Shown: positions 2,359 through 50,200 of the stretch, piece by piece
Layout of the letters: the number at the start of each line of letters is the position of its first letter
Numbering within the stretch: position 1 is the first letter of the stretch
NCBI GenBank assembly: GCA_029215795.1
Contig: JARDYH010000005.1
Span: 14,354,001-14,418,000 of the forward strand
Reading direction: 5' to 3'
Source: Anniella stebbinsi
Taxonomy: Eukaryota > Chordata > Lepidosauria > Squamata > Anniellidae
Length of the DNA: 64,000 bases
Notes under the pieces: generated by a model
What the model saw: only the letters and a program-made list of their open reading frames with translations
What the model was told of the DNA's origin: nothing
The model's database searches: none
Translations under genes and position numbers: made by a program

Positions 2359-2494
2359 ATGAAAGTTCTTGCTGTTGTCCTCGTCGGCCTAGCCATCATG
2401 GCAAGTGAAGCCAAAGTGTTTCAGAAATGTGAACTAGCAAAGATTTTCAAAAAGCATGGACTAGATGGATACTCGGGCCACAGACTGGAGGATT
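2359..2494 (+). CDS. Gene A exon 1 (signal peptide and N-terminus)
   Basis: Encodes residues 1-45 plus the first base of the Trp46 codon. The start was chosen because it gives a K-rich n-region, a hydrophobic core LAVVLVGLAIM and a mature N-terminus KVFQKCELAKIFKKHGLDGY, which matches lysozyme C. The donor is T|GTGAGT at 2495. Confidence 0.93.
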
Positions 2495-4801
2495 GTGAGT
2501 TCTGTCACTTGTGTGCACAGCTTCCTTTAGGTTCTTTGCGGTGATTTAAGTCCTTTTGGGGTGGAGGTATTGGTTGTGTGTCTACTAATGGCTCAATGCA
2601 TTGGAAAGTTTTTGGTGTATTTTTCTTTGGTGTATATATTATTGTTGCATATAAATTGATATGGTATCTTAGAGCCGATCTACACGCTAGCTTTGTAACG
2701 TTTTACAAGGGTTACAAAAACTCTTTGGGCCACATGACGCACTCCCTTGAACATTGTATACCCGAGGTTTTTTAAAACTCACTTCAGCTATATAAAACAG
2801 TTTTTACTTTTAATAATTTTTTAAAAGTAAAATAATGTGTCCTTCCTTACCATTTGTGATTTGTGGGGGAAGTGCTTCATTAACCAGCACCCAAATGCTT
2901 AGCCGTTGATTGGTGGGGAAGAAAGAGGGGCTAAGGAGGAAGTGGGCGAGTGAACTACAACACCCACAGTGCCTTGCCCTAAACTCATTGTAAAAACAAA
3001 ACAGAAAGAAATGGACAGAAGGGCGTGAGACCGCACATATCGCTTTGAAGACTGAAGAATTTTTCTCCTGTAACGTGAGTACTCCTTAATGTGGCCTAAG
3101 ACGTTTTGGAACCAGCTTTGAAATCTCTCCACTGGCTGCCAATTAGTTTCCGGGTGAAGTACAAAGTGTTGGTTATTACCTTTAAAGCCCTACATGGTTT
3201 GGGTCCAGGTTACCTGTGGGATCGCCTTCTCACATACAATCCACCCTGCATGCTCAGGTCCTCTGGGAAGAATTTACTACAGTCAACAAAACCTAGGTTG
3301 ACAACTGTTACCCAGAGGACCTTCTCTTCTGCCGCTCCCAGATTGTGGAATGACCTGCCGGGAGAGATCTGCCAACTCACCAGTCTTCAAGAATTTAAAA
3401 GAGCTATAAAGACTGATCTCTTCCGACAGGCCTACCCAGATGAATTGTAAGTGTTTTATTGGTGTTTTATTGGTCTTTTAATGATGTATTGGTTTTACGT
3501 GCTTTTAATCAGTTTTGTGTATTTTATGCTTGATGTTGTTCCCCGCCTTGATCCGGAGGGAGAGGCGGGTAATAAATAAATATATTATTATTATTATTAT
3601 TATTTGGAATGTTTTAAAATACTATTTAAAATGTTCCAAGGTACTGTGTAGATAGGCTCTTAATGATTACCTCATCTGTAATTCAAATATCTTAGTACTA
3701 TGAAATGACTTGTTAGGACTACAAAAGTATCGGCATCACAGTACTGAATATAAAATTTGTGCATGCATCAATTCAAACAGACAAAACGTTCAACATCTTT
3801 CTAAACAAAACTTCTAAGCAGAGTCAGGTACATTTCTTAGACCTCAGTGAACATCAATATTGAACTGACCAGGTTGATTCTACAGGTAACACATCTAGGA
3901 ACTGACCCAAGAACAAAGCTCCTGCTGTTGCACATACAGCATCTCCTTTATATATTTCTTCGATGTTGTAAGATATATGCAAAGCATTTTACTATTCATT
4001 TGTTCCTTCCCCAACAATTGTGGGCATGCAATTCTATTCTTCCCCTAAATCTTTATATGCATAAGAAACATTATTGCATGTCTGAATAAAATCTTTATAT
4101 GTCTAAAAAAAACCCTGAATTTCAAAACTTCTTACGAAGATAAATGATCACAACTCCATCCTTATTCAAACATTTCAGCCTCCCTTGACATGTTACAGGT
4201 GTGTTTGTGACACAGAAATATTTCTTGATTTTATCTTGTCTTCTGACCTTGTTTTCTTATTTCACTCCTGCTGTACTTTATTATCTGGGATGAGAGTTCT
4301 GGTTATTTTATCTGATGGCCTATGGAGCTTGGTTATGGAGGTCATTGTTTTATAGTATCCTCTTTGAAACTGCTAAGAGGACGATGAAGCTATAAATTGA
4401 ACATGGGCACCTCTTTGCCTGGATTCCGCTCTTATCATTAAAGGATGCCAATGATCAATGTCCGATGGCCTGGCATTGCTGTTTCTCAACTAGCAAATGT
4501 CAGAGATGAGACACATTTATTACTCGAGGGGTGGGAGATCAGGGTGTGTTGCATTAGCCATTGGAATGCCATTTTTAGTGCCACAATTTTCTTGGAGGCA
4601 TTCGATAATAGAAATTCCTAATTGGGCAGCAGGGGTTACATAATGTAAATATGAAAGATGTGCCTGGTCTGTCACAACATCATGTAGAAATGTGGCTGGA
4701 GCACCAAATTCCAAATCTCTTATTAGTCCCTTCAATGTCCAACAAAATATCCACCTGGCAAAATTATGATGCTCAGAGAAAGACATATAGGCAAAATACC
4801 A

Positions 4802-4868
<67 letters not shown>

Positions 4869-7800: not shown

Positions 7801-10800
7801 TGTGCTTTAGGGTCACATTCCAAGAACCCACAGCTTACCCAAATGATCCCCAAAGGTGATGAAACTGTATTTCCTTGCTGTAGTCATAATGATGCTATGA
7901 GTTCAGGGAGTTCAACATACAAAACTGCACAGGCTTAGAATATTATTATTTTTTAAATCGGGGTTGGCAAACATCGTTGTTATTCTAGCATATCAAGAAT
8001 GATGGTTGTGGGGGGAAGAAGAGAAATGTTAGTTGTGTGTTTCACAACTGGAGTTATCAGACATGGCCGTTTAAAGCCCTGCCCCACATAAGACCATTAG
8101 GTCCACAGTTTTAAACCGGCTAGCATCAACACTGCTCCCATGATGGAATCCTCCCATGAAGGCCTGGCAGGCTCATTGTCTTTGAGGGTGGGGATGAGTT
8201 TCTGGAAGCTATTAGGAGTCGATTGGAAGAGCTTTTGAACTAATTTTCACCATGTTGTCCCTGCTGCTGTGCTGTGGTTCACTCTTTTCAGTCAATTGTT
8301 TCTGTATTAACTCTTTGAACTACTATTACAGTCTATCTGTACTGGTAGTATCAATGCTTCTTCTTTTACTACTTCTATTAGTAGTATGTTTATCCAAATC
8401 ATTCACACAGATTAAACCTGAAGGTTTAATAGCTCTGATTCCAATAGGGAACAAATGGCTGCCATTTCCAAAATCTGTACATTTTGTCATCAGTGGAATT
8501 TCAGGAACTTTCAAAAGCCATTCCTTTGTAGACAGCAGAGATGCTGATGTCATGGACGACATACCTCCAGTCGCAGGGATTGACTTACTATCTAGCTGAA
8601 AGGATAGATGGTGGGGGTGTCAGAGGAAGACATTTATGGGGTAAAGCTCCATGGGTTTTCATCAGCTCAGGCCCCCTGGACCCCATCTCACTCATCCCTG
8701 AACTGGCCTGACGCATCGCACAATGAGTCAGACCACCTCGCCATTTTTTATATATTATTATTTGTGATTTGCGCAAAATTGCAGGTGGAACTATGGAAAT
8801 CACAATATGTGCAAAATTGTGACCATAAATTGTGCAATGTGTGCAAAATTGCAGGTGTAATGGCCATTTACGCTGGCAATATTGCACACATTGTGCTATT
8901 TACAACTGTGACACAAATCACTTCCATAAATATTTACAACCCATAATTTCGAGCAAATCACAATTTGCAAATAATTTTAAAAGGCCAGCAAAGTTCCCGA
9001 GTTTCAGGGACGCTGCAGGAATTCATCATGCCCAAAAAGGACTGGATTTCCCTCCAATGAGCATCCCTAATAGGTGGTCGCAAAGAAGATAAATTGATTC
9101 TCAGGATGCAAAAATAAATTTATTAACAAGAAGCCCAATCCATTTTGCCCTGTCCCTTGATTTGAGGCCTTCTTCGGGGGGGGGGGGGGGTGAAACATTA
9201 GGGATAATAAAAATTACAAATGAGACATCACATAATACAAAAACATGTTTTCAGAATTTATTAATAAAACATATTGCCAAAGGGGCCTATGCATATATAG
9301 TATTTAAAATAAAAATCCATGTAAACCCTGCCATAACACTAGGAATAACATGCTAGAGTGAATAAGAATGTACATATTATTTAACATTTAGGCTCAGCCC
9401 TTAGAGGGCAAAGGAAGCGGCTGCTCTCAGTGGGGGGGGGGAGTTCTCACTCCCTGCCTCCAACTGGGAGCAGCATTCAACTGGGAGATTATCCCACATC
9501 ACTTGAGGGAAGCCCAGTTCCCAATGCAGGCGGGCAGGTGAGCAGGCGGGCAGGCGGGCGGACAGCCGGGCAGGCGGGCAGGCGGTTGGCCAGTCTGACT
9601 TAGTGCTGCCATCTTCAACCAGTCCCTCACTCACTTCCACAGCCTTGTTCATATTCCTTCATTCTGTAGGCTCATAGGAATTGAAATGATGACACCTTTG
9701 TTATTTTACTTGTATTTTTTTTAAAAAAAATGTATATTTTTCTCCTTGAATTTGGTGCCCCACTTAACTTGGCATCATGAGCAGCTATCTAGTTCACCTG
9801 TATGGTTGGGCCGCCCTTGACCTACTTACTTGTGTCTTGCCTCTTCCTTCTGTCTTCACTCGCATTGTGATGGGAGACACACACAACATCCATCAAATTA
9901 CTTCATTCAAAGAAAGTCATTCATCATACCTTACTAGTAACAACCACTGCAATAGGAAGTACCCCCACAATAAGGCACTTTCTTGTTCAAGGAGCCATTT
10001 TCTATTAACTCAGGGGATGGTAACACTTGGAAGCAAGGTGGGTTATTTCAATTAATCTCCATTAGTTCCTCCAACTCTCTGTGTCATTCCCTGTTTTCGT
10101 AGAATTCCTTAATGACGACCTCACCGATGACATTCGGTGTGCCAAGATAATTGTCCAGAGTAAAAATGGGATGGCAGCTTGGTGAGTAACTTTTGTCTTT
10201 CTAAACTAAGAGAGCGCCTTCTCTCCTATCAACCTGCCTATTCACTGAAGTCATCTGAAGGAATGCTACTGGTGGTTCCACATGGACCTATGGTCCAATT
10301 GGGGTCCACCAGGAGAAGAGCCTTCAGTGTGGTGGCCCCCTTCCTATGGAGTTCCCTGCCTTTGGAGGTCAGGCAGGCACTAACCTTGTATACCTTCTGG
10401 TGCCTCATGAAAACGTTGTTGTTCCAGAAATCTTTCCCTCAATGACCAGCCACGGTTTTATTTGCACCTTGTTTCTTTTAAAAATGTATTTTAATGTGTT
10501 TTTATTCTGTTTTTATTCTTTGATTCTATTTTCACCGCTCCAAAATTCTTGAATGGGGAGTGGTATGTAAATATTTAAAAATAAATAAATTAACTCTACA
10601 CATTTAAAAAAGCAGCTGATGTTGCTGATTTATCTACATTTTTCATTTTGTTGCCATGCCCAGCAATCATTTTAAAAACAAACCAGAGATGTATTAAAGT
10701 GTTTCATTTACCAGTGGATGGAATCTAGAAAGCACATGAAGTCTAAGCATACTGAGTAAATTGAAACTCACTGAACAGGGCATAATACAAGTGAGTTTAG

Positions 10801-11116
10801 GACTATGCCTAGGCTACCATGCTTTCTTAATTTTATTGCAGAGTTGCCTGTCTTCATATTTCCTATGTGTGTGTGCTTGCAGAACTGCAGAACAAACTAC
10901 CTTTATTCCAAACCTTGGTTGCATTCCAAAGTTGAGGCAAAATTCCCAGTTTCCAGAACCTTTCCATTTTTTGATATGTTTGAATTATTTGACATGCCCC
11001 TGGTTAAAGGGAAAGAAGGTGATTCTCCTTCTTTCTGTATCCTCAGGCAAGCGTGGACAAAAAGATGCCAAGGGAAAAACCTTCATGGATATCTCAAAAC
11101 CTGCAAAGCGATTTGA
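2359..11116 (+). CDS. Gene A: non-catalytic lysozyme C-like secreted protein (4 exons, 146 aa)
   Basis: Joined exons 2359-2494, 6636-6791, 10103-10181 and 11047-11116 give a 146-residue precursor with the four-exon plan of vertebrate lysozyme C and alpha-lactalbumin; intron phases agree throughout, and codons for Trp46, Lys98 and Trp124 are split across introns. An 18-residue signal peptide (cleavage ASEA|KVFQKC) leaves a 128-residue mature chain, the usual size. All eight cysteines are present (24, 48, 81, 92, 96, 110, 131, 143). The catalytic Glu35 of lysozyme is Ser53, and the loop carrying Asp52 is one residue shorter and reads NRRRKLFG, so muramidase activity is not expected. The calcium loop KFLNDDLTDDI resembles alpha-lactalbumin, with one ligand position changed from Asp to Asn (residue 101). 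The role is inferred to be secreted and non-enzymatic. The identity of the fold is firm; the name is not. Confidence 0.92.
3104..3603 (+). mobile_element. L2-like LINE 3' end
   Basis: Encodes the ORF2 C-terminal signature SLHWLPISFRVKYKVLVITF, then RTFSSAAPRLWNDLP and a phenylalanine/lysine-rich end, followed by a 3' tail ending in ATT repeats. It is about 90% alike by eye to the copy at 52680-53165. Confidence 0.88.
4801..4865 (+). repeat. Compound (AC)n(AG)n microsatellite
   Basis: About 10 AC units run directly into about 23 AG units. Confidence 0.98.
4978..5165 (+). repeat. Unnamed interspersed repeat, copy 1 of 3
   Basis: Shares the order CTATCCAAG ... CTTAGCACC ... TTCTGACTGGTTCTG ... 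GAAACCCAGAAT ... TTCACAGCCCCACTGAAATC ... GCCTC(T/C)ACTG with copies at 41315-41480 and 45455-45600. All three lie in the same orientation. I do not know the family. Confidence 0.6.
5985..6290 (-). mobile_element. LINE reverse-transcriptase scrap
   Basis: The minus strand around 6061-6180 reads PLLKRPNLDTKNVNNCRVVA followed by NIPFVGKMFEW, the L2/CR1 reverse-transcriptase N-terminal signature. It is degenerate, with no intact frame. Confidence 0.7.
6636..6791 (+). CDS. Gene A exon 2 (altered active-site region)
   Basis: The acceptor CCCTGCCAG ends at 6635 and the donor A|GTGAGT starts at 6792. The exon completes Trp46 and encodes residues 47-97. The lysozyme landmarks FNT, FKINSGYWC and RNLCRIAC are visible. 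The position equivalent to Glu35 is Ser, and the loop equivalent to residues 46-54 has three Arg and a Lys in place of the STDYG segment. Confidence 0.92.
6828..7449. mobile_element. MITE with CCTGTTCAGACAAC termini, interrupted by a second element
   Basis: The left end GGGCCTGTTCAGACAACA and the right end GTCTTCTGAACAGGG are inverted repeats. Internal text (GTAGCCAC...CATGGTTAG, AAGCCATCATG) matches uninterrupted relatives at 51352-51564 and 53986-54170. Another element sits inside at 6939-7325. Confidence 0.75.
6939..7325. mobile_element. hAT-like nonautonomous element nested in the MITE
   Basis: The ends are TAGGGCTGTGCACAG and CTGTGCACAGCCCTA, a perfect 15-bp terminal inverted repeat. 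The flanks GTAGCCAC (6931-6938) and TTAGCCAC (7326-7333) agree at 7 of 8 bases, the size of duplication hAT transposases make. The interior has a purine-rich GGAGAG stretch and many GGATCC/GATCCGG-type words. Confidence 0.75.
7593..7785 (+). mobile_element. CR1/L3-type LINE 3' UTR fragment
   Basis: Contains AGCCCTGCTGGATCAGACCA, ATCTAGTCCAGCACTC, TTCCCCAGCAACTGGTGTAT and ACTGCCTCTGATACTGGAG, strings recurring in reverse at 55500-55650. These are typical of sauropsid CR1-like 3' ends. Confidence 0.7.
7790..10102 (+). other. Rest of gene A intron 2
   Basis: No exon recognised. It holds a low-complexity patch built on GTGCAAAATTG words (about 8760-8870), poly-G tracts (9178-9190, 9432-9441) and a GGGCAGGC minisatellite (9527-9586). 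An open frame at 8252-8599 is not convincing. Confidence 0.6.
9527..9586 (+). repeat. CAGGCGGG minisatellite
   Basis: About eight imperfect copies of a GGGCAGGC/GGGCGGAC unit. Confidence 0.85.
10103..10181 (+). CDS. Gene A exon 3 (calcium-loop exon)
   Basis: The acceptor is TTTTCGTAG and the donor TG|GTGAGT. The exon is 79 nt long, the same as exon 3 of gene B. It encodes KFLNDDLTDDIRCAKIIVQ followed by SKNGMAAW. Asp103, Asp106 and Asp107 keep alpha-lactalbumin-type calcium ligand positions; Asn101 replaces an Asp. Confidence 0.93.
10200..10595 (+). mobile_element. L2-like LINE 3' fragment abutting an exon donor
   Basis: The reading frame at 10179-10445 includes RRRAFSVVAPFLWSSLPLEV, the conserved ORF2 C-terminus, followed by a tail with AAATAAATAAAT. 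It begins about 20 nt after the exon 3 donor of gene A. Confidence 0.75.
11047..11116 (+). CDS. Gene A exon 4 (C-terminus and stop)
   Basis: The acceptor CTTTCTGTATCCTCAG ends at 11046. The exon completes Trp124, then reads QAWTKRCQGKNLHGYLKTCK, two more residues and TGA. This matches the lysozyme C terminus with its last two cysteines and ends at the normal place, unlike gene B. Confidence 0.92.
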
Positions 11117-28989: not shown

Positions 28990-30310
28990 AAGAAGGGGTT
29001 AAAAATGACCCGGGTGATTGACATGATTGCGCCTGAGCGCTCTCTCCTGTGTAGAGCTCATATGGCTCCATGGTATACCCCAGAGCGAAGAAACAAAACA
29101 GGAGACGGCTTGAGGGCAGATGGAGACAAACTCCTAGTGGATGCAGCCAAACACTGGTAAGTGCCTATAGTAAGGTGTATTCAGGGACAGTGAGGGCGGC
29201 AAAGAAGCAATACTTTGCTGCCACTATCAGATCATCAATCTGCCGCCCAGTGGAGCTTTTCAGAGTTATCCAGGGGCTATTACATGCCGGCCGACCCCAA
29301 GGACATGGTACAACCATCTGAGGCCTGCTGTACTGAATTTGCTAGGCACTTCCAGAATAAAACCTTGGGCATCCGCCAGGACTTAAGACTCCAGTGTTAT
29401 AACAGGTGAATCTAGCAAGGTGTCCAGAGCACAGGCTTGTCCTGTTTTCTTGGATGAGTTTCAGTTGATACAGCTCGAGGATGTTGACAAGGTGCTTGGA
29501 CAGGTTCGTGCAGCCACCACTGTATTGGAGCCTTGTCCCTCTTGGGCCCCCTCCACAAGGATGCGCTTTTGCGCCCGGTTTGGGGATTATGCGCATTATC
29601 GCAGAGGCGCATTTACGGCTAATCCCTCTGCACGGGAGGCGGCGAGAGGCGGCGAAGCGCATTAATTGATGTCCAAAAAGCGCTTTAGAAGACGTTAATG
29701 CGCATAATCGCTTGTTCACACGGCAAAAATGCGCTTTAACGGCCGGAGCAAAATAAAAGTCGCTATTTAACGCGCATTCGAAAATGCGCATTATCGGGGA
29801 GATAACGCGCCTGTACGCCCGTTTTGCGCTCCGCTGGTGTGGAGGTAAAATTTATAATGAGCCTTCAAGGCTCATTAAACATCTCGTGTGGAGGAGGCCT
29901 TGGCTAATAAAAACTAGCAGGGATGGAACAGCTAGCTGGGCCAGGGAAGGTATTAATGCCTCTCTGTGAGAGGGAGTGGCCCCAGGCTGTCTGAAAGAGG
30001 CGGTAGTGAGACCACTTCTGAAGAAATCTTCCCTGGACCCAGAAAATCTGAATAACTACAAGCCGGTGGCAAATGTTCCATTCCTGGGAAAGATCCTTGA
30101 GCAAGTGGTTGCGAGCCAGCTCCAGGCACTCTTGGATGAGACCGATTATCTGGATCCATTTCAGTCGGGTTTCAGGCCTAGTTCTGGCACTGAAACAGCC
30201 TTGGTCGCCCTGGATGATGACCTACGTCAGGAGAAAGACAGGGGGAGTTTGACTCCGTTGATTCTCCTTGATCTCTCAGCAATAAATAATAATAAAAATA
30301 ATGAGCTCCC
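28990..30310 (+). mobile_element. L2-like LINE, 5' and middle part, interrupted and internally truncated
   Basis: ORF2 text seen before the interruption is LDEFQLIQLEDVDKVLGQVR, matching the minus-strand copy near 1200. After it come NNYKPVANVPFLGKILEQVV and DPFQSGFRPSSGTETALVAL. It stops at LILLDLSA and passes directly into an AATAATAATA tail at about 30283. The AATGCGC-rich element lies inside at 29546-29898. Confidence 0.85.
29546..29898. mobile_element. AATGCGC-rich MITE, copy 3, inserted in L2
   Basis: 353 bp; the ends GCCCCCTCCACAAG and CGTGTGGAGGAGGC form an imperfect 14-bp inverted repeat. CTTGG flanks it (29541-29545 and 29899-29903). The L2 text on either side (CCCTCTTGG | CTAATAA) rejoins after removing element and one CTTGG, which fixes its borders. 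Confidence 0.88.
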
Positions 30311-31429
30311 TTCACATAGAGAAGTGACACTGAGGAACCATGGTTCTCATCTTGCCCTTCTCCTTTTCCCATTCATTCATTCATTTTCTATGTGCAGGGC
30401 ACATGGTAGAGCAGCTAAAGCTGGGGCAAAAGGGAGGGGAGTGGCATTTCCCCTGGGGAAAAGAGTGATTCAAACTTGGAGGGGTGGGAAGACATAAACT
30501 TATAAAGACCTTTCCTGAAGGATGAAATGCCAAGGGACGGACTGATTGATTTGTATTTTCTTTCTCCAGTTGGCCGGGGGCGGGGGTAATTCCAGATTTG
30601 GGGGGGGGGAGAATACAAGCAGAAAAGGCCACAAAAAGTACAGAAAAACAAGAAGGAATGCAGGCAACTTATTTTGCCAGTTTTTTGTTCCACTCATGGA
30701 ACAGGGCGTTGCCAGTCCATGATGGCATCATAATGCTCTGGACTTATTAGTCCCAGGTATCACAACTTGACATGACTGTGCCATTTTCTCCCTCATTGCT
30801 GCCTTTGCTCTATTTTCCCACATTTTTTTTATTATGGAAACAGCTTTGCTGGACGGCTGATAGGATTCCTCCATCTCTGCTAAGTGGTATATTGAAGCTT
30901 TGCTTCTTTCTGTTTCCCTTCGCTAACGCGTATGAATATACTCTACAGCGTTCTTCCTACGTTTCTCAGTTTGACCGTGTACGTTCAACTAGCCCTTTGA
31001 TTTATTTTAAAAACAATGGTTTTAGCCAAAACTTTTCATTCACACCCCTTCATACCTTCTTTTATTAAATCATTCACCAATGTCTAAATTTAAATGGAAC
31101 ACTACCCTCCCCTTCTTATTAGGTTCGTTACATATGTTACTGCCTCTTAGGGAGGGGAAGCGTATGAATACCCTTGAATACCATTGTTTAAATACAATTA
31201 TTCAATCCCCCTTCATAGGCAGAGCAATCCTGGGGGGAGGGGAGATTCCATGTAGAGCAATTAAGCCCTGACACAGCTCACTGTGGCCAGGGCAGAATGT
31301 GAAGGGTAGCTCATTTATTTCAAAGTTTATCTTCACCACCACCACCACCACCACCATTTCAGTCAAGTGAAGGGAATTACCAACACCAGCTCCAGGGATG
31401 ACACAGCTCCATTTTGGGAAACAAGGGGA
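30311..31429. other. Intergenic sequence, nothing assigned
   Basis: No gene recognised. A G-run (30600-30609) and a short ACC repeat (31333-31356) are present. Confidence 0.4.
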
Positions 31430-36790: not shown

Positions 36791-38263
36791 ACACAAATTG
36801 CTCTCTTTATTGTCTCACATTTCGGTGGGAGGACTTGGAATCATGACACAAAGTCATGCTGACCCTTTCGCATGCATAGTTGTGTCCAGCTCCTCCAGAA
36901 GAGTGCCACAGAACCTGTATCCAACTAGAATGACTCAGCTGTCCTCCAACTTGACAGCATCCTTAGCCCACTTGCAGAGCCCCAAGTTCAGCCTGGGCTT
37001 CTCCCTAACTATCCAACTGTCACCAAAACAAATGCATCCTTTCCATCAGCAATATGAGAGCCAGACATATCCTCAATACATCCTGGTCTAGTTTGGAAGG
37101 AGGCTTTTTATTGTTATCTGAACTGGGCGGGGCTTTTTATTTGTTGCTTATTTAAAATATATCTATGCCACCTTTCAGAGCAGGAGCCATCCCAAAGCAG
37201 TTTACAACAATAAAATTCCATATAGTAAAATCCCATACATTGATCAAACAGGAAAAAAACCCCATAAAAATAAATGAATGACAGCAATAAAATACCTGGC
37301 CTAGGGAGGACTATAAATCAATGATATAATTGCAGCTACCAACAAAATCAGTCCAATACATAATCAGTGGAAGATCTGAGAAAACAAATCAATCTTCAGG
37401 GCCTTCCTAAAAGCTTGCAATGATGGGGCCTAATGGAGCCCCACAAGTGGCCCATTCCAGAGGTGTGGGCCACTGCAGAAAGAGCTTCTCTACATGAGTA
37501 ATTTATTGCACACTCATGATTGGTCACTCACAGAAGTCTGCAGATTCTTTACACGACGCTGTCAACCTCCAGGATGTCTCCCATGTTTTTCTCTCCCATG
37601 CAGTATTTTAAATTATCACAGGATATCCCCAGTGTGTAATGCTGGTGTAGCACTACACACGGAGTGTTTCCTTTTCTGCTTTTCCTAGATAATCTCTAGT
37701 TGACACTGTGGTGTAGCAGAATAGCATAAATAAACAAGAGGAAATTACGCTTTCTTTCATCTTCACAATGAAGTGCCACATTTTCCTTGCTCTAAAAAAA
37801 ATTGCAGGAAGTCCTGGCTAGACACAGAAGCAAAACTGGAGGATCACGACATTGTCCAAAGCCATTCACATTCAGTATTACTGAAGCATGTTACTCACTA
37901 TCTATGGTGAAGCTAGGCAATTTTAGACCCAGGATCCTTTCGACGGACATGTGTATAACTACAGTTGTGAAGCACACAATGAATATTTCTCTTCCACTCT
38001 CCCAGAACCATTCCATGCTTTAAAACTGCTTCTGCACCCCTGAAATGTTAGAACAACAAAACAGTTTGCCAACCCTGGTTAAAGAGGGGATTCTCTGAGT
38101 GTTTGTGCATTTAAAACTTACTTAAATAATAGCACCACAATGACGACAGGGTTCAAATCAAGTTTGTTTATACACCTGCCACTTTCTGGGTGCTCATTGG
38201 GGGGGGGGAGGGACAGGACATACTGAGCTATGAGCCCCCTGGCCGTTCATTTAGTTTGTTGAA
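36791..38263. other. Intergenic sequence, diffuse repeat remnant
   Basis: About 37140-37480 has TTACAACAATAAAATTCC and CTTCAGGGCCTTCCTAAAAG text typical of old interspersed repeats on either strand. No gene recognised. Confidence 0.35.
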
Positions 38264-38555
38264 CTAATGCAAGAATCCAGTTTTGGCCTCCTGAATCTCT
38301 ACAAGCTGTGGAGAAGAGGGACATTCTTCATGTATAAGCTTTTCAAGCTCCAGCAGCATTGTGAGTGATGTAACAATAGACTTTCCTTCTTCTACATAGC
38401 GACTAAAGGTACATGAGGGCTCACACTGAGTGGATTGGCCGGCATCGTGGGCAGCTTTCATTACCATCACTTTGGGTTGCATACCAGCGATGCATTGGAC
38501 TGCGTCAGTTTTGAAGACGTGTATGTACGTTCCAGCACACGGTGGGAACTGGCCT
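38264..38555 (-). CDS. Unidentified open frame upstream of gene B
   Basis: A minus-strand frame stays open over about 95 codons; from the Met at 38482 it gives 72 residues ending at 38264. It contains TYIHVFKTDAVQCIAGM and STQCEPSCTFSRYVEEGKSI, five cysteines in all, and an even, protein-like composition. It runs away from the gene B promoter. I do not recognise the family. It may be an exon or gene fragment, a domesticated transposon piece or chance. Confidence 0.25.
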
Positions 38556-38622
38556 TTTCCTAGGGTCGAGGTGACACCAGCATGGAGAGGGAGCTGGGCA
38601 GCTCCACCTCTTCCCTGGAAGG

Positions 38623-38628
38623 TATAAA
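38623..38628 (+). promoter_or_regulatory. TATA box of gene B
   Basis: GGTATAAAGAACT, with TATAAA 37 nt before the start codon. This implies transcription starting near 38650 and a very short 5' UTR. Confidence 0.75.
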
Positions 38629-38664
38629 GAACTGTGCAGTGCCTGCATTATCATCGCTACCGAG

Positions 38665-38806
38665 ATGACGACACCTAACTTAGCTCTTCTCTTCCTCCTT
38701 ATCATAGTGGCCAAGGACAATGCCATCATCATTGACAGATGCAACTTGACAGCTATCCTGAGGGACGAGGGCTTGGAGGGGTTTGCAGGAACTACAATAG
38801 CAGAGT
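38665..38806 (+). CDS. Gene B exon 1 (signal peptide and N-terminus)
   Basis: Encodes residues 1-47 and one base of Trp48. Hydrophobic core LALLFLLIIVA; mature start near IIIDRCNLTAILRDEGLEGF. The donor is T|GTAAGT. The ATG follows the TATA box at the expected distance. Asn27-Leu-Thr is a glycosylation sequon beside the first cysteine. Confidence 0.9.
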
Positions 38807-41800
38807 GTAAGTGCCCCTCAATTTTGTTCTGCATCTTCACAGCCCCTACAGTCAGCTCAATGTTCCACCTCTGAGAGGAGTTTCAGACTTTAGCCACGTG
38901 GGATGGAAAGATATGCCTGAGGGTCGGGTGAATTAAGCCAATGTCATTTGAGAAGGGTTGCATGCATGTTGGGTTCATGATGATAGACCCACCCCACAAC
39001 CATTCTATGCCTGAGATTGGACATCCAACTGGTCTGCAGCACACCTTTTATCACAGGATTTCTTTTACCTCGTTTCCCTTTAATGGTGCCCAAAATCATC
39101 CTCTAAGGGCAGCTAGCTGCCTCATGGTAAAGCTGGACCTATTTATCAGGGGAACCTGTAGCTCTCCAGATGTTGTAGTCCTACAACTATAATTATTCTT
39201 GATTATTGGCCAGACTGACTGGAGCTGATGGGAGTTGGAGTCCAACACCATCTGGAAAGTGATGAGTTCCTCAGCCCTGCCCTTTGTAGTAATCCACACT
39301 CTCAACACTGGCCAGTGAACATATCAAAAAGAATAAATTCAGGGTGACCTTGCCTCATATGGTAATGGCCTGCACTGTGAAATTCAGCCCTCAGATGATA
39401 ATGGCACAACCCTCTTGACATGACACATGAGTCAGGATTAGATCTAGAAGTGACCCTAAGAGAAAAGATGAAGATCATTCAAGCTGAGGCATCTGAGACA
39501 GATGTGGAAATTTTGAGTCCAAATCAGCACTGCCCTTTAGTGAGGGTAGTGGCTAAAGTGTTCAGCTAGCTAAAACTTTAAGGTCAGGTAGGAATTTATC
39601 TAAATCGGGACTTTTAAAAAATGATGTCCAAACTTCAGTTAGTAATTGTAAATGGGTATTAATTTGATTAAAATATGTGAATGGGCAATAGGGGTGTGGG
39701 TAGGTGGGTGGGTGGGTGGGTGTACATCCATGTAGGGGGTCCTACATAGCAATGATTCCCTCCATTTGCAGAAGTCATGATAAAAATCAGTGTGTGCAAG
39801 AGATCAACCCAACCCACTGATCCTCACAAGACCATCTCCTATCATGGTAGCAGGAAGGAACTACCAATCTAGGAGACAACTGTGAATGTGAACCCTTAGA
39901 CTTTGACGAGTTGTACTTTGTGAATAGAAAGGCAGATTTGCATGAACTTTGATCTCCCACAGGGGAGAGGGAGTAGGGTAGAGAGAGAAGAGAGAGGAGA
40001 GAGGGGGAAAGGAGAGAGACTAGCCACTCCATCACTTTCCCAATCCACAGGCAAACGTCTACTACCTTAAATACAGATACTTCTGCCTGTTGGTTCTTGC
40101 AACACCTCTGTGATGGGGAATTCAAATCCATTTTCCTCCACCGCCAGGGATTTGTTTGGTGTTTCATAGTAGCGGCTTTGACACATCAGCCCTCAACAAG
40201 GGACCAAAGGGTACCAATCATGGGATCTTCTTCCTCAGTTCAAGGTGGTGGTGTAACAATTCCAAGACGCCATATGCACGCAACTACTGCAACTTAAGTT
40301 GTGAAGGTAAGGACCCGTATCCCTACAACACACAGTGTGTGTAGTGGTGTAGTGAGAGCCACTATGGCCAAAGAATCAGACTGTACTCCCTGGGCAATGA
40401 TTAAAGACTCTCTTGCATGACATAAGTCCCTTCCCATTATTGCTACCTAACAGTATGTTCTGCTTTGTCTTCCTTACTATATCTCATACTGTGTAATTAA
40501 TGATAATTGCATCCCGATAGATATCCCACTTCATTTTTTTTTAATTATCCCAGTCCCTCACTCCTCTCATCTCTCTTCCAGAGCTCCAGGATGACAACAT
40601 TACGGATGACATTCACTGTGCAAAAAGAGTTGTACAAGAAAGCAAGGGCTTCGAGGCATGGTAAGCAGATCATCTTTATCCCTGGGTATCCATTATCATA
40701 TCAGCTGGGGAGGGGGAGGAAAGGGAAAGCAACAACAGAGAATGGCCGGCAGGCCTTCGCTCTCTGCAAGGGTGCACAAGAGACAACCTTCATAGTCAAT
40801 CTCAATTGGGGCTACCACCAACCCCTGCTCCTGGAGTCTTTTGGCATGCACAGTGAATGTGGGGAAGGGAAAAGGTCTCTCTCTGGCCTCTCCTTTGAGC
40901 TTGGAGGTGGGTTGTTGTTACTGACTGTGGTCCATACTTTGGAAGCATTCTTTAGTTTGTCATGAGCCAGAAGTCCAGCAGTGACCTGAACCCTGAGGCC
41001 GAAAAACCAGTGGTGCCAACAGAAGAAACTCTGGATCTGAGCATCACTATACAGCTGTTGGAGCCTCCTGAGCCTGAGCTGCCAAAGTCCAGCTTTCCCC
41101 CAACTTGATGCTCTTCAGATGGTTTGAGTACAGCTGCCAGGATTCATGATCATGGGCTATGCTGCCTCAGGCCCAATGGGAAATGAAGTCCAAAACATCT
41201 GGAGGATGGCAGGTTGGAGAAGGCTAGACTAGCCCTATGGACTAGCTATGAACTAGATATGTTTTTTAAAAAAATTGAAGTGCTTTCCCCTAAAAGAACT
41301 ATCCAAGGTACTTTTCCCCTAAAGGTGCTATCACTAAAGATGCTATCCAAGCTGCTGAAACCTATCCCCAAAACCAGTTCAGCACCTTGAACAGCTCCTT
41401 TAGCACTGGTTGGTTCTGACTGAAACCCAGAATGGATTCACAGCTCCACCAAAATTGAAACCACCTGCCTCCACTGACTATAACATACCTACATCCAGCC
41501 TCAGAACACCTGAGATGAGGTAAAATAGACCTTACTTTCCAGGCAGCATCACTTGTTTCATATGCTTACAAAACCTATAGCGTAGACTGCACCAAAGATT
41601 CCTGCTGCTTGTTTGGATGGGAGACCAAACCCTACATGTACAAGACTGCTTTTCTATGTTGTTGTTCTGAGGATACCATCCTCATCCTCAGTTTGTGCAG
41701 CTGTCTGGATTCCCAACCCCACTGTTTTGCACTCATGATCTTCAGGTCACTTGATTCTTGTACAGTGGGAGTTGTTTGTGAAACTGGAGAATGTGTGTCC

Positions 41801-42899
41801 AAATGTGTGGCTATGTGGATTCTCCCTCACCATCCCCCATACATAATCAAAACAGGAAAGTGGGTCCCATGTTGCAGGTTGTGAATCAGAGGTAGGTCTC
41901 AGGTCAGGACAGATTGTAGAGCACTGGTTTGAAGGATGGATATACTATGTTCCAGGCAAATGCTTAAAGCACTTCATAGAATAATGACACTAGTAAATGC
42001 TGCAGTAGTAAAGAAAGAAATTAAAAATAGAAGATATCAATATCCCAGGAAATGCCAAAATTGTACCCCACCAAAATACCTTGAGACAGCCCTGCAGCCA
42101 TACAGACAGGACACTGATCTTGCTCATAGAACTTGAGCATTCTGTAGATGGAATAACGTTGCATCCGGCACTGGTAACTATTTCAGAGCTCCGTTGTCAT
42201 ATGACAGCATAGCACTTTTTATCTTCCCAGCCAAGCATCTATTGAGTTGAATGACCAGCACTATTTTGACCAAGGGTTTCTCATTATAGGAGAGCCTGGA
42301 GGAGGTATTGCAATGGACAAGATCTGAAGCAATATGTCGCAGGCTGCGAGCATGAAGTCACCCTCACCCCCAGCCAGACAACTTCAGTAACAACCCCTGC
42401 TACTGACCGTAGGCCAAATGCTACACTTTCAGCAATAGATCTTGCAGACACCACTTTTCTATTCAAGGGTCCTCCAGAACCTACAAGCTCATTGAAGCAG
42501 CAACCAAACACCAGCCAGCCAGCCAAGGGTCCTCCACAACCTACGACCTCACTGAAGAAGCATCCAAACACCAGCCAGCCAGCCAAGGGTCCTCCAGTAC
42601 CCACTCTCTCAATCAAGGAGCCCCCAAACACTACCCCCTTCCCAGCCAAGGATCTTCCACAACCTACTATTTCCATCAAGGAGCCCCCAAACTCCACCCT
42701 GCCAGAAAACCCCATCTCATTCAATGAACCCCCAAACCCTACCTTCCCAGCTGAGGTTCCTCCAAAACCTGCCATACCAATCAAGGAGTCCTCAAACTCT
42801 ACCCCTTCAACCGTTGGTCCCAAACACTCCACTCTCCCTGCTGGTGGTCCTCCAAAGTCCACTGTTGTTATCAAGGAGCAACCAGAAGACAAGCGGTAA
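38665..42899 (+). CDS. Gene B: lactalbumin/lysozyme-fold protein with mucin-like C-terminal tail (4 exons, 329 aa)
   Basis: Exons 38665-38806, 40148-40306, 40582-40660 and 42290-42899 join in phase; codons for Trp48, Glu101 and Trp127 are split, exactly as in gene A. Signal peptide 1-20, lysozyme-fold domain 21-146 with all eight cysteines (26, 50, 83, 95, 99, 113, 134, 146), then a tail 147-329. Lysozyme Glu35 is Ser55 and Asp52 aligns with Asn71, so it should not cleave peptidoglycan. FHSSGFDT (53-60) matches the FHxSGxDT stretch of mammalian alpha-lactalbumin, where the Phe-His pair helps contact galactosyltransferase. The calcium loop has Asp104, Asp109 and Asp110 all kept. The tail is Pro/Thr/Ser/Lys-rich in about 20-residue repeats with several N-x-S/T sites and no stop before 42897. 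A secreted, calcium-binding, possibly glycosylated non-enzyme is inferred; function unknown. Confidence 0.9.
38807..40147 (+). other. Gene B intron 1
   Basis: Contains a MITE scrap (about 39150-39260), a GGGT microsatellite (39696-39722) and a purine tract (39960-40020, GGGAGAGG/AGAGAGAGG). No further exon seen. Confidence 0.6.
40148..40306 (+). CDS. Gene B exon 2 (lactalbumin-like segment)
   Basis: The acceptor is CACCGCCAG and the donor G|GTAAGG. It encodes residues 49-100, starting ICLVFHSSGFDTSALNKGPK. Later landmarks are FLSSRWWCNNSKTP and RNYCNLSC. The lysozyme catalytic residues are absent, and the loop is one residue shorter than in hen lysozyme. Confidence 0.92.
40582..40660 (+). 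CDS. Gene B exon 3 (calcium-loop exon)
   Basis: The acceptor CTCTCTTCCAG ends at 40581; the donor is TG|GTAAGC. The exon is 79 nt. It encodes ELQDDNITDDIHCAKRVVQ then ESKGFEAW. Compared with alpha-lactalbumin, the three side-chain Asp ligands are present, and the two backbone-carbonyl positions are Glu and Asn. Confidence 0.93.
40661..42289 (+). other. Gene B intron 3
   Basis: Contains a MITE scrap (about 41100-41230) and copy 2 of the unnamed repeat (41315-41480). Nothing else assigned. Intron 2 is only 275 bases. Confidence 0.55.
41315..41480 (+). repeat. Unnamed interspersed repeat, copy 2 of 3
   Basis: GCTATCCAAGCTGCTGAAACC, TTCAGCACCTTGAACAGCTC, TTGGTTCTGACTGAAACCCA and TTCACAGCTCCACC align with copies at 4978 and 45455. 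Confidence 0.6.
42290..42899 (+). CDS. Gene B exon 4 (end of fold plus repeat tail)
   Basis: The acceptor TTTCTCATTATAG ends at 42289. The exon completes Trp127 and reads RAWRRYCNGQDLKQYVAGC, the normal lysozyme end. It does not stop but continues with EHEVTLTPSQTTSVTTPATD and the proline-rich repeats to TAA at 42897-42899. The acceptor fits the known intron position, so the tail is part of the same exon rather than a spliced-on unit. Confidence 0.88.
42462..42896 (+). repeat. Coding tandem repeats, ~60-nt unit, in gene B tail
   Basis: About seven imperfect units built on GPPxPTxSxKxxPNTSQPAK. Units 1 and 2 are nearly identical over their shared parts; later units diverge and lose parts. The period keeps the frame. 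Most NTS, NTT and NST triplets fall at the same place in each unit, giving regularly spaced N-glycosylation sequons. Confidence 0.88.
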
Positions 42900-43025
42900 A
42901 GTCAGGATTTGATTTGATTACCAAATTGTGTATTTTGGGTTAAAAGCATCTAACATACCATGGATCTGCAGTGATTATGCCTACAACATTTACTGATATG
43001 GATCCATCCCCACATCCCGTTTTGA

Positions 43026-43031
43026 AATAAA
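43026..43031 (+). terminator. Likely poly(A) signal of gene B
   Basis: AATAAA 127 bases after the stop codon, followed by a T-rich stretch. Confidence 0.65.
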
Positions 43032-43990
43032 TCAGTTTTTAAAAGGCATGTTATTTTATAAATATTCTCTGCATCAAGAGAATGCTCCCAATAGAATTAG
43101 GTAACCACAAAATGGGACATAAAATATGATTGTAGTCATGACCATATGTGCATGTTCACAATGCAATATAAAACCCAATGACATCACTTTAAAACAATGC
43201 ACATTCAAGTAGTTCATTAGAAAATGTTTAATAATGCAAGATACTGTCTCTGAAAACATAATCCAGTACAGTGATGAAATCCATCAACCTCATATTAGTA
43301 CTGATTATTAATAAGCCTGAAATAAACTTGCAAACCTCTTGCTGATGTCTGTAAATTGATATGATATTATGGGACATAAATATGATGGTCGCAGTGATGA
43401 CCAGGTACCTATTTTATGAACAGAACTCAACTGGAAACCTAAATGCCTGTTCTATGTATGGTATATGTTTACTCCATGAGGTAGACAATATCGCTAATAT
43501 AATCCAAGTTAAAATTATTCTTGAAAACAGTTTATTTCACAAGGGCACAGAGCAAAGATGGCCATGAAGCACTTCAATAGGGCCACTGCATGCCTTCTCA
43601 CAGTTGCAGTCTTCTACAACAGAGAAGAGAAGGTAGTTTTGGCTGGGCAAGTTGGAGCCAATCCCCAAAGATTTCACTCCAAATTGTTTAATAATAGCAG
43701 CCACAAAATGACTCCTCCATGGCCACCTTTAAATTATCCTGCTGAAATGAAGAAAGCTTGGGGTAACCAGGAGTAGATTTTTGTGGAGAAGGACTGCAGG
43801 TTCCATTCAGTTCTGAGACTGAAAACAAATCCCAGGGCCCAGAATTCTTTGATCCTATGTCTCTTGCGCCAGGTTCCATTCGGTGGATCTCAGAGTTCTA
43901 GTAAAACAACATCCCAAATTTGATCCTGCAGTCTGCCTGCCCCTTTAACCATCCAGCGCTGCAGGGTTAGCTGGCAGTACTCCATTCACT
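43032..43990. other. Intergenic sequence, nothing assigned
   Basis: No gene or named repeat recognised downstream of gene B. Confidence 0.4.
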
Positions 43991-44498
43991 GGCTGGTTTC
44001 GGACGACACTTTAGGCAACAAGAGGGGGAAATAGCGTACTGACCGTGCATTAGGTAGGTGGTGCTCCCCACACAACACGTTGCAATGCCGGTGCTTGTGC
44101 AGCTGAAAGTTCCGGCGGCCATCTTGGTTGCTACGTCTGCTCCCTCCCCCTCCCTCAGTCCTCCAGCCGTATCCCAGCATGCACCATGAGTTCTGCTGGC
44201 TGTATAGAGCAGCCGGGGGGGGGGGGGGGGTCGGCTGCTCCGGCTGGCAAAACTCTATTCCCAAATAGTCCATGGGGAGAGGTGGGGTTGGTTTCAGACG
44301 ACACTTTAAACAACAGGGCTTCGGGCTAAACAACATGCAAGCCCGTTGTTTCTCTCCGTTGCTTAATTGGGTGGAATAGGGTACTGTCAGTTGTGTGTGC
44401 GTGGTGTGTAACCCTCCACTCGACACAATAAGCAACACAACTGACGATTGCTTCCCCCACCCCCACCCTGTTACTTAATGTGTCGTCAGAAACCAGCC
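43991..44498. mobile_element. Element with GGCTGGTTTCGGACGACAC termini
   Basis: The left GGCTGGTTTCGGACGACAC and the right TGTGTCGTCAGAAACCAGCC are inverted. An internal copy of the left end (GGTTTCAGACGACACTTTAAA) at about 44289 suggests one element beside or inside another. A G-run lies at 44217-44231. Confidence 0.7.
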
Positions 44499-45454
44499 AC
44501 TGTGTTTGAGTGGACTTTGGCTCCACCTAATGGTAGCTTCCGACCAGACTTTTGAAATAGTTGGAGCTAATGATTTTGAATTCCCACTTTTAGCCACTCC
44601 TGTTGCATAAGGGGGGACTGCTCCAAACGGGCCACAGAACAGGCTAATAACAAATAACATGAGGTGGGCAATTCTTATTTCATCCTCTAAAAAATAAACC
44701 CTTTTGGTTGCAAACAAATGGAAGCATCTCTCCGCTTTTAATTCAGAAAAAAAAGCAGCACACCTCAGCTATTAGAACTTCTGTCTTAGCCATGCCTTGC
44801 ATTATTTATTCATTCATTCGTTCATTTATTTGCAATATCTATATACAGCTCCCCATCCAAAGATTTCGGAGCGGTGAACAAAAAAATGGAATAAAAACAA
44901 ACAAAAAAATCATATTAAAATTACATTTTTAAAAGAACCAGTCATGCAACTTTGTCAGTTCCCCATTTCAGGTAAGATGAAGTAGAAGCTGAGCAGTACC
45001 AATATATGAAGGAATCCATTCAGTTCCACAAACAGCAGGTGTTAAATGAAGCTGTGCACATTTGCACAATAGACTTGTTTCCTTGATGCAACTTTTTTGT
45101 TTGGTTTTTTTTACTTTGTGGGACAGGGCATTCATAATTCTGACCTCTTCCCTTCCTATTTCTACCACATGCTGTGGTCCCTGCTGCCCTCTGCGGTCCC
45201 ACAATGGGCCACACGTTGCTGATGCAAGGAGACAGGATCTAGGGGGAAATAAGACACGTTGTATTCTCAGCTGAGTTTGAGCTTGGGTTTGCGTTTCCAT
45301 CTAGATTTCTGTCGCACTCATCACCAAAATAGGATGCTTTGTCCATTACTTCCATACCTTCATAACATCCTAGCATTCTTTCAACCATTTACATTGGAGT
45401 TGACTCTCCACTAAAGCATGGGGGTGGGGACAGAAGAGAGAAGTGCTGTTGTGA
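44499..45454. other. Intergenic sequence
   Basis: A SINE- or LINE-tail-like scrap (about 44790-44890, CATTCATTCGTTCATTTATT). Nothing else assigned. Confidence 0.4.
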
Positions 45455-46825: not shown

Positions 46826-47287
46826 TCAACGGGCCCCGCTTCCTGATGGCCAAGGGTTGAGCCGGCACTGCGGGCAGCAGCCTGAGTACACAAGAACGTC
46901 GCAAGCCTCAGACCGTTCGCCGGCGTGCCAGCCTGCGGGCCAGCCGGAACAAAGCCGATAGGCTTCCAGGTCGCAGATAAGTTCCACCACCTCATCGACC
47001 GTGGTGAGGCGGGCAGGGTGGCTGGCATAGAGTTCGTGCTCGGGAGGTACAGGCAGGTCTCGCACCACCACGTGGAAGAAAAGGCCCGGGCGGATGTGGA
47101 TGACCGCTGCCGACATGGTGGAGTGTTTCGAGCGCTGTACGAGGCGCAGGTCGGGGCCTCCCAGTGGGGGCAGCACCTCCCAGTGAGCCGGGAGAGGGAT
47201 CTCGTTCAGCTCGGCCAAGAACTCTCGCAGGACGCTGTCCAACTGGGCAAGGGGCTGCACACCACCCAGGCTATAGATCTCCATGAT
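46826..47287 (-). CDS. Gene C last coding exon (C-terminal domain)
   Basis: The acceptor TTGTCTGTCTTTCCCCAG ends before 47287. 153 codons and TGA at 46828-46826. Seen: LDSVLREFLAELNEIPLP, AAVIHIRPGLFFHVVVRDLP and LTTVDEVVELICDLEAYRLC, mixed hydrophobic/charged and clearly protein-like, with a CCPQC near the end. The plus-strand frame over this exon is a shadow. Confidence 0.85.
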   Translation of the reverse strand: MMEIYSLGGVQPLAQLDSVLREFLAELNEIPLPAHWEVLPPLGGPDLRLVQRSKHSTMSAAVIHIRPGLFFHVVVRDLPVPPEHELYASHPARLTTVDEVVELICDLEAYRLCSGWPAGWHAGERSEACDVLVYSGCCPQCRLNPWPSGSGAR

Positions 47288-50200
47288 CTGGGGAAAGACA
47301 GACAAAAGAAGGTCCGTTCAGTACACTATCCTTTCCGCTTTCACAACATGGTGCCCAGGACCAAGAAAGTGCAGCTGATGCAACACTGGCTCAGCTTTAC
47401 CTTCGGGCTCAACATCTGGAATTTCAAGGGTGGAAGGAGGTGGCATGCAACTTCCCCTAAAACCAATAACACCCCAAATGGGGGGAAAAAACGACAAAAA
47501 ACAAAATTTAGATGTGCTGCCATTTCCCCCAGCTTACACCACATCGTACATAATCCCCTCAACCCTCAATTCCTTTCATGTGATAGCGCTATGGATGATG
47601 GGATCAAGCATAGAAATGTTTTATAAGGAATTACACATTTCTGTGTTTAAGGAAGAGGCAAAGGATTCCGCTAATTCAGCATTTCAGTCTCTGGATATAG
47701 AATCATAGGAGAGTTGGAAGGGGCCTATAAGGCCATCGAGTCTAACCCCACTGCTCAATGCAGGAATCCACCTTAAAACATACCTGACAGATGGCCGTCC
47801 AGTTGCCTCTTGAATGCCTCTAGTGTGGGAGAGCCCACCACCTCCCTAGGTAATTGCTTCTATTGTTGTACTGCTCTAACAGTCAGGAAGTTTTTCCTGA
47901 TGTCCAGCCGGAATCTGGCTTCCTGTAACTTGAGATCATTATCCCGTGTCCTGCACTCTGGGATGATCAAGACGAGATCGTGACCCTCCTCTGTGTGACA
48001 CCCTTTCAAGTATTTGAAAAGCACTATTCAAGTCTTGGTTTAAAGGATGGATTTGAGTTATTCTGGTCTAAAGACATGAACAACGGGTTTGAGGGACTGC
48101 AGCCTATCACGTGCCTCCTCAACCTTTGCTCCTTTTTAGGTTATTACATCAAGCACATCTGGGTGAAGGAGAACAAATATCAATCCATCACAAATAACCC
48201 CTTCTTAGGAGAAGTGCTTGAGCAAGTGGTTGTTCAGCAACCCCGAGGGCTCACAGATGAAACTGGTGAGTGGCAACATTGGATTCAACCCATAATCTAA
48301 AACAAGAGCATGGTTTTGTGGACGAAATAAAAAAATATTCCATGGGTTTTTATGATGGTGTCTCACTGCGACAGACACACACACACACACACATCTTGAT
48401 ATAAGCAAGACACACATAACCAAACTTGAAACCGCCACCGTCCCTTATTGGCCTTAGCATTTGTTCCACCCTCACTAATTCCAGCCTGCCACACCCGCTG
48501 TACTGGTCATCCTCAGAATGTGGGCAGGCTGGCCTGGAACAACAGCCTCGGCCTTCTCCTCCCCCAGAGTTACAAAGAAAGAAGCCGGGGATGTCCTGTT
48601 ACTGAGATACTTGACCACTCACCACTGGGGGGCGCATTTGCTGCAGCTGCTCCACCTCATCGTCCTCTTCATCATCCAGAACCACCACTTCCCGGCCCTG
48701 CGTTCCCCGGGCCATCTTAAACTGAGGAAGTCCCGCTGACACCTGTAGCAATAGAGACAGGCAGGAGGTTCAGTTTGGTGGGCAGGCCTCCCTTAGGCGT
48801 TCAGATACCCAGGTGCCATTTCAGAGAGCAACTCTGGCACTAGAGGGGAACAGTGGCCAGCCGCACACACAAAATTACAGAGAATTGCTGAAGGAGAGAA
48901 GTTGGATGGCAAGACCACCCAAATTCTAGTTTCCCTGGCCTCAATCCTAAACACGCTTACTAGGCAGTAGTAAGTCCCCACAGTAGGACATACATCTGAG
49001 TCAGCAGGCCTAGGAGTACGTTGGGAGCCACAAAGGAGGTTTACTTAAAATATACATGAAGGGTGGGATTTAAAAGGGCTACGAACCCTTTCAGAATTGG
49101 TATGGCTGGACATCAACACCCTGCATTGTCACATTTTAGACTTTGGGCCAACAATGGAGAATCCATTGTAACTGCAGCCCAAGCCAACTGCAACGTGCCT
49201 ATCCAACATTATGCTCCTAGAGGCCAGGACCAGACATGAGGAAAACAAACCATTGCACCATTTGTCCTGTCCAACTTAGCTCAAGGTGCCCAGAGGTGCT
49301 GACATTAGCAAGACTCATACAAGAAAGCTGGGTTAATGCAAGACCCCTCCCCCCCCCGGGGCAGGTGAGCTCACATCCAATCAGATCAGGTCAAGTCAGG
49401 TTTGATGTGCTGAACAGCAAGGCCAAGTTAGACCAGGCAGGGACTTTCAGGACCTTGGCAAGTTCCAAGTTAGTGGCGCCTCAGTCAAGATGAGCTGTTG
49501 ACTCAACCAGTCAAAGGCTTTCTGAAGCCTTATAAAGGCCAGCAGCTCAAGGCCTGCAGTTAGCTCCACCCCCTCAGAAAAGCAGTTTGTTTCTTAAGGG
49601 GCTAATATCTAATTTGAAGCTGCTGACTCCTATGGGGTGTGGATGGTCAAGGCTGTAATGGGGAAGTGTCCTCTGCATCTGAATAGTCAGGTAGAGGCCC
49701 AGCCTCTGGCCTGGAAGGCCCTGGCAGAGCAGGAGTTGGGTTAATGGAGGGAGTCTCCTCTGCCTGCAATTCCTCTTCAGAACCAGAGGACGGGTCAAAG
49801 CTGGGGAACATAACACCATTCATTCAGCCTGGTGTCAATTGTTGTCAGGTATAAGTCTTCAACAAGGCCAGAGGCCTTGTTGATTTAAGTAGAAATAGTT
49901 TTAGAATGTCAATGCCTCTGCAAGCTTATCTTTGTCAGAGTTTCTCACGGGAATAGCTCTCTCACCCGCTGTCATGGCCTTGAAGCTCTAAAGGTTTTCC
50001 TGGGAACCTGAAAGGTGGGGGGGGGGGGGAAGACGCTTGTTGAAAGAGTCCATGTGCAGAGTGCTTTCAAAGTCCCAAACGGAGATGGATCCAAACAGGA
50101 GAGATTTCAGGCCTTGTTTCGAAAGATCAACCTAGCAAAGCTCAGCTGTGCCCCCCTGATTATAAAGGCTTCTTCAAAGCCACTTGACAGACAGGTCCTG

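Follow-up and report, generated by a model that had tools for sequence, protein, structure and literature searches.

Proteins of the c-type lysozyme/alpha-lactalbumin family (PF00062) usually end within a few residues of their last cysteine, a norm that is not formally defining, and rat alpha-lactalbumin carries a short extension. The genes of this family have a four-exon layout (PMC3141428). Here we describe gene B, a member of the family from Anniella stebbinsi (Squamata; Anniellidae), which lies in a window of 64,000 nucleotides (the whole stretch of DNA analysed) at positions 14354001-14418000 of contig JARDYH010000005.1 (C5) of assembly GCA_029215795.1; the genome searched consists of 91 contigs with a total length of 1.89 Gb. 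Gene B has in common with the family the fold, the eight cysteines, the four coding exons, the leader and the location in a tandem gene cluster, and differs from it in the loss of both catalytic residues and in a repeat tail of 183 residues. On balance we consider it probable that its product, a two-part glycoprotein of several squamate lineages, is secreted and binds glycans without catalytic activity, through a head that is stabilised by calcium and carried on a flexible, glycosylated tail.

The lysozyme fold and the mucin-type tail are each known singly, and their union in one vertebrate gene appears to be undescribed. The stomach lysozyme of the hoatzin (PDB 6T5S/6T6C) shares with gene B the stretch G-TTIA-WICLV-H, a short loop and 47% identity, and differs in that the PDB chain is tail-less; it is enzymatically active (PMC6887759). 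Alpha-lactalbumin resembles gene B in being non-catalytic and in its calcium loop, FH-T-SGYDT motif and Ser59, whereas it is a mammalian milk protein and the human protein has no repeat tail. SLLP1 (SPACA3) likewise has a lysozyme fold without catalytic activity, Glu35 and Asp52 being replaced in the mammalian protein, and has been reported in sperm-egg binding; a tail of the gene B type goes unmentioned in the excerpts available from that source (PMC5104373). Carboxyl ester lipase, or bile salt-stimulated lipase (CEL), is an analogue and not a homologue: as in gene B, a secreted globular domain is followed by a tandem-repeat tail encoded in the last exon, whereas its head is an active lipase and its repeat has 11 residues. 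The threonines of these 11-residue repeats are O-glycosylated, the copy number ranges from 3 to 23, and the suggested roles of the tail are protection from degradation, help in secretion or higher solubility (PMC8692231). By analogy, CEL would be the nearest design and SLLP1 the nearest functional precedent for the head.

The original prediction, made from the letters of the window alone, held that no vertebrate family with this layout had been described. Literature searches on tailed lysozymes, on the locus names of the orthologs and on lysozyme of lizard glands agree with it, in that no tailed lysozyme was described among the matches listed; gene models of this kind are nevertheless present in public databases under odd names ('YLP motif-containing protein 1-like', 'uncharacterized protein' and 'putative Lysozyme C-2 protein'). 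The femoral gland secretion of the marine iguana contains abundant lysozyme C, which cannot be tied to gene B because the available text of the report gives no sequence (PMC8143647).

Gene B starts with an ATG at window position 38665 and stops with a TAA ending at 42899, and its splice model has four coding exons encoding 329 amino acids. The model was made with a script in which GT and AG sites were tried in windows of about 10-20 bases around the expected exon boundaries. A single canonical GT/AG solution was obtained, which rules out alternative splicing near the expected sites and bears out the ancestral four-exon layout proposed originally; the TATA box and the poly(A) signal said to frame the gene are likewise present (Table 1). 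Gene B belongs to the c-type lysozyme/lactalbumin family by a full-domain profile match: the Pfam model Lys covers residues 23-146 with profile positions 3-123 of 123, at 141.9 bits (curated cut-off 27) and an E value of 1.6e-41. The eight cysteine columns are invariant in the window and seven orthologs. The leader, judged by eye, is a putative signal peptide. No Pfam domain besides Lys was found in the protein at E values up to 1, and hence no VWF-D, cystine knot or SEA domain; the NCBIfam search gave no match, and Rfam gave none in the window at gathering thresholds.

As the original prediction stated, the fold is complete through the eighth cysteine, and the same last exon then stays in frame for 183 codons rich in Pro, Thr, Ser and Lys before the TAA, a departure from the family norm. 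The tail consists of 45% Pro+Thr+Ser, contains four N-glycosylation sequons and has an isoelectric point of 8.9. Its period is 20 residues, with a unit of about KGPPKPTVSIKEPPNSTLPA. Tandem repeats rich in Pro, Thr and Ser are the mucin trait present in this tail; mucins are also densely O-glycosylated and contain domains of the gel-forming type (VWF-D, cystine knot) or of the membrane type (SEA). When sequences were simulated with a first-order Markov model, a frame of 549 bases was open in 166 of 20000 runs based on the composition of the tail itself and in 3 of 20000 based on that of positions 38000-45000; one antisense frame of exon 4 is likewise open. The open frame alone is modest evidence, since the simulations leave some frames open and the antisense frame is open too; the tail is accepted as real because every database relative with the last exon (8/8) carries a homologous in-frame tail.

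The origin of the repeat had been put down to capture or growth. Growth fits the tandem array. Capture from elsewhere was rejected, as no supporting match was found in the genome or in the examined cluster DNA: at E 0.001, exon 4 matched nothing in the genome but itself (of 160 candidates, 150 were scored, so that counts are lower bounds), in a search of limited sensitivity that, using the whole exon, also missed the short last exons of the paralogs, and the only tail-like DNA in the examined cluster was gene B's own repeats plus three matches of 18-32 bases with E 0.61.

Protein database searches at cut-offs of 1e-3, 1e-20 and 1e-10 yielded 18 different proteins; these searches restrict candidates by length and shared words, and other lineages may be missed. 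Gene B's exon 4 is present in eight of the 18, from seven squamate species (Rhineura, Thamnophis, Protobothrops, Naja, Podarcis muralis with two records, Pseudonaja and Crotalus), and all eight have an in-frame tail with recognisable repeat units. Tail frames broken by stops in relatives had been named as grounds for abandoning the prediction; according to the gene models, the frame is open in each of these eight proteins. A further relative is a tail-less frog lysozyme (P0016), and no record among the 18 combines the complete fold of gene B with a normal end. The tails are 156-254 residues long in seven of the eight and 81 residues in the Crotalus model, and each contains 34-46% Pro+Thr+Ser and 1-5 N-glycosylation sequons.

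Six pairs of tails were compared by local alignment, and all scored above the best of 200 shuffles each (z 8-23), as did four pairs above the best of 500 shuffles when the last 75 tail residues were used (z 6 to 13), values that are somewhat flattering because shuffling breaks up repeats. A 20-residue repeat profile built from the units of the window and Rhineura matches the seven other tails, the best unit in each at 2e-5 or better, and the final repeat units align across the window, Rhineura, Podarcis and Protobothrops. The strongest identity lag is 20 in the window, Rhineura and Naja, 25 in Podarcis, whose tail is enlarged by an added 25-residue repeat, and other than 20 in the remaining four snake tails. 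Judged from these alignments, the tails are homologous, beyond likeness in composition. Since the tail is common to snakes, the lacertid, the amphisbaenian and A. stebbinsi, it should predate the split of these lineages, which occurred well over 100 million years ago. On this comparison it looks like a real and old invention shared by snakes and lizards, and not a reading error.

The two P. muralis records (P0005 and P0006) belong to one locus and are 50 residues, i.e. two 25-residue units, and a few substitutions apart; the length difference may be allelic, as a coding length polymorphism, or an assembly matter. In two other models, P0015 and P0017 from Pseudonaja and Podarcis, exon 1 of another lysozyme-like gene is joined to exon 2 of gene B, which hints at a tandem neighbour in those species too, or at read-through transcripts.

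Head residues were tabulated for ten orthologs, with P0005, P0009, P0011, P0013, P0014, P0015, P0017, P0018 and the paralogs with partial exons omitted from both the residue table and the tree; the omitted database records comprise the second Podarcis record, fragments and chimeric models. The catalytic pair of an active lysozyme, Glu35 and Asp52 in hen numbering, is missing: Ser, Thr or Ile stands at position 35 and Asn at position 52 in 10/10, and catalysis should therefore be lost. Trp62 and Trp63 are kept in all ten, Ala107 in the nine that reach it and Trp108 in the eight rows with exon 4. Position 59 is Ser throughout (10/10), and position 57 is Leu (Phe in the window). By these residues, the tryptophan part of the predicted cleft is retained and the Gln57 and Asn59 part is gone. 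At lactalbumin positions 82, 84, 87 and 88, which we take to be the calcium-loop residues, D-N-D-D is found in all nine orthologs that reach the loop (D-S-D-D in Anolis); horse milk lysozyme, too, reads D-N-D-D in this loop. Calcium binding by the gene B head is expected. The window head is 70-82% identical to nine orthologs, the highest value being that of Varanus (82% over 79 columns), compared with 47% to hoatzin lysozyme (125 positions), 47% to the lysozyme of the frog Mantella (126 positions), 40% to echidna, 39% to horse, 39% to human LALBA, 38% to hen and 28-44% to the paralogs used.

The gene structure, the residue losses, the conservation of the tail and the existence of one ortholog clade are established for gene B. 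The favoured reading of a glycan binder on a glycosylated tail accounts for them as follows. A duplicate of a c-type lysozyme would have lost both catalytic residues but kept the eight cysteines, the loop for calcium and the tryptophan wall of the cleft in which sugars bind. The last exon of this duplicate would then have lost its ancestral stop and grown an in-frame tandem repeat of about 20 residues. The head is probably stabilised by calcium and acts like a lectin, binding glycans of the N-acetylglucosamine (GlcNAc) type without cleaving them. The tail, presumably flexible and bearing O-glycans and some N-glycans on its Thr/Ser/Pro-rich chain, may confer solubility and resistance to proteases and retain the protein in a secretion at a surface or in a lumen. 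From the sequence we infer secretion, disorder and glycosylation of the tail, binding of calcium and glycans, and the biological role; the mucus, egg or skin secretion proposed originally is a guess as to the tissue.

Several points weigh against this reading. Nine of the 18 relatives lack exon 4, being fragments or chimeric models (P0009-P0015, P0017 and P0018, including Anolis, Varanus, Podarcis and Pseudonaja), so that shorter isoforms are possible and, for Anolis and Varanus, the tail is unverified. The ortholog records, moreover, appear to be predicted gene models. Snake tails show the 20-residue periodicity weakly, as the top lag in one of five, and the Crotalus model is missing the middle of the tail. 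The Anolis model shows Cys in place of Trp108 because it stops just past exon 3; it ends in CCS where Trp108 is expected, and this end was trimmed before the residue table was made. Glycan binding may be lost, as the cleft-lining Gln57 and Asn59 are replaced in 10/10 orthologs. Finally, the pooled ratio of nonsynonymous to synonymous differences (pN/pS) between the repeat units of the window is 0.83, and constraint on the exact tail residues is therefore weak. The Anolis carolinensis model (P0010), which ends just past exon 3, has a last exon that is either absent from the model or lost in Anolis.

Some of these points suit a different division of labour, in which a bulk glycoprotein of mucus, egg or skin would work through its tail, and the head would have no affinity for sugar and serve only in folding and export. 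In the tail, composition and repeats are maintained although individual residues vary, the Podarcis tail has been enlarged with its new repeat, and the two cleft replacements are universal among the orthologs; the head, however, is well conserved at the identities given above, and the cleft tryptophans are invariant. We regard this as a possible alternative, to be kept in mind at a clearly lower probability than the glycan binder with a glycosylated tail.

In a second alternative, gene B would correspond in squamates to alpha-lactalbumin, the regulator of beta-1,4-galactosyltransferase: its product would bind calcium, lack catalytic activity and regulate a galactosyltransferase, the tail being an addition. 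In its favour are Ser59, the absence of both catalytic residues, the calcium loop and the short loop, as well as the FH-T-SGYDT-like motif in most orthologs and the His at lactalbumin position 32 in 10/10; the short loop and the His are not lactalbumin-specific, because both occur in hoatzin and frog lysozyme. In a tree of 29 rows, the ten orthologs form one clade (support 100/98) on a long stem. Human LALBA, the one LALBA sequence included, is the neighbour of this clade in the best tree with a support of only 69/72, and an alternative grouping of the clade with hoatzin lysozyme is not rejected, with a P value of 0.37 in the approximately unbiased test (p-AU). Positions 31, 110, 117 and 118 of lactalbumin, which we take to be contact residues, vary among the orthologs, and squamates produce no milk. 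PF13891, presumably carried by C12orf41, has three matches in the genome (C1:196.22, C1:196.24 and C5:27.70 Mb), none of them near the window or C5:14.39 Mb. LALBA adjoins C12orf41 (KANSL2) and CCNT1 (PMC3141428); with the PF13891 matches all elsewhere, LALBA synteny was rejected for gene B. In its available portions, a survey of the lysozyme family reports no good candidate for a non-mammalian ortholog of lactalbumin (PMC3141428). Kinship of gene B to alpha-lactalbumin is possible, and a functional counterpart is quite improbable. It is also rather unlikely that gene B stands for a secreted squamate class in which a calcium-binding, non-catalytic lysozyme head turned lectin is set on a length-variable mucin tail and which, by common ancestry with lactalbumin, would be a living non-mammalian member of that line with a different job.

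It is very improbable that gene prediction has wrongly joined untranslated DNA to the gene as its tail, with the true end supplied by another splice or last exon: the tail is supported by gene models, and the open antisense frame and the nine models lacking exon 4 would fit such an error, and yet the frame is free of stops for the full 183 codons past the last cysteine and the homologous tail recurs in frame in snakes, the lacertid and the amphisbaenian wherever exon 4 is present.

Table 1. Features of gene B and its flanks in the window.
Feature	Position	Strand	Description
TATAAA box	38623..38628	+	42 bases upstream of ATG
Exon 1	38665..38806	+	hydrophobic leader and start of fold with first cysteine; ends within the Trp28 codon (hen numbering); unique splice model
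Exon 2	40148..40306	+	cleft region; Glu35->Ser, Asp52->Asn; Trp62 and Trp63 retained
Exon 3	40582..40660	+	calcium-loop sequence DDNITDD
Exon 4	42290..42899	+	end of fold including eighth cysteine, then 183-residue Pro/Thr/Ser/Lys-rich tail and TAA
Tandem repeat array	42464..42804	+	overlapping rows with periods of 60, 63 and 105 bases; encodes units of about 20 residues
AATAAA poly(A) signal	43026..43031	+	

At least 20 matches to the family were found in the genome, all on C5, of which 17 are of the exon-2 type (including genes A and B) and three of the exon-3 type. Those of the exon-2 type are located at 12.84-12.90 and 14.03-14.39 Mb, and one further exon 2 is at 14.276 Mb. Ten clear last exons of paralogs were located, all of which stop 2-3 residues past the last cysteine, and one more is degenerate; in the 12.8-12.9-Mb group this survey covered about 3 kb around exon 2 of four copies. 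For three copies, at 14.276, 14.288 and 14.308 Mb, the examined cluster DNA yielded no last exon. At C5:14151844 (L012:1844) there is a paralog last exon minus one cysteine, with 13.3 bits, which is probably a decaying copy.

Gene A, at positions 2368-11116 of the window (+), is lysozyme-like with exon pieces at about 2368, 6638-6790, 10102-10182 and 11048 and a tail-less normal end; it has Ser at position 35 and Leu at 52. The catalytic residues are also lost in L030, L031 and the copies at C5:14288711 and C5:14308404, which lie with gene A at about 14.28-14.36 Mb, and gene B therefore adjoins a run of apparently non-catalytic lysozyme-like genes. In a further lysozyme-like copy (L008, C5:12895390-12898557) Glu35 is kept and position 52 is Ser, the pattern of SLLP1 in snakes and anole (PMC5104373). 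This gene, distinct from gene B, fits the residues of reptile SLLP1 and is a candidate SLLP1. Elsewhere in the window, an open frame of 163 residues at 46829-47317 (-) had no Pfam match, and matches to RVT_1 (Pfam reverse transcriptase) were found at 2-916 (-) and 29970-30494 (+), the second below the curated cut-off.

The lysozyme family is a textbook example of a single fold reused for new roles, and to our knowledge the chain has stayed short in its vertebrate members. In squamates, one lineage appears to have extended the protein with a mucin-type repeat tail, through tandem growth within the last exon, and to have retained this tail since before snakes and lacertoids parted. Gene B would be a comparable example of a mucin-like region arising on an enzyme scaffold, and its product is a candidate for a secreted protein that serves defence or reproduction in snakes and lizards. 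It would also be a non-mammalian relative of the milk protein alpha-lactalbumin, should the link between the two be true.

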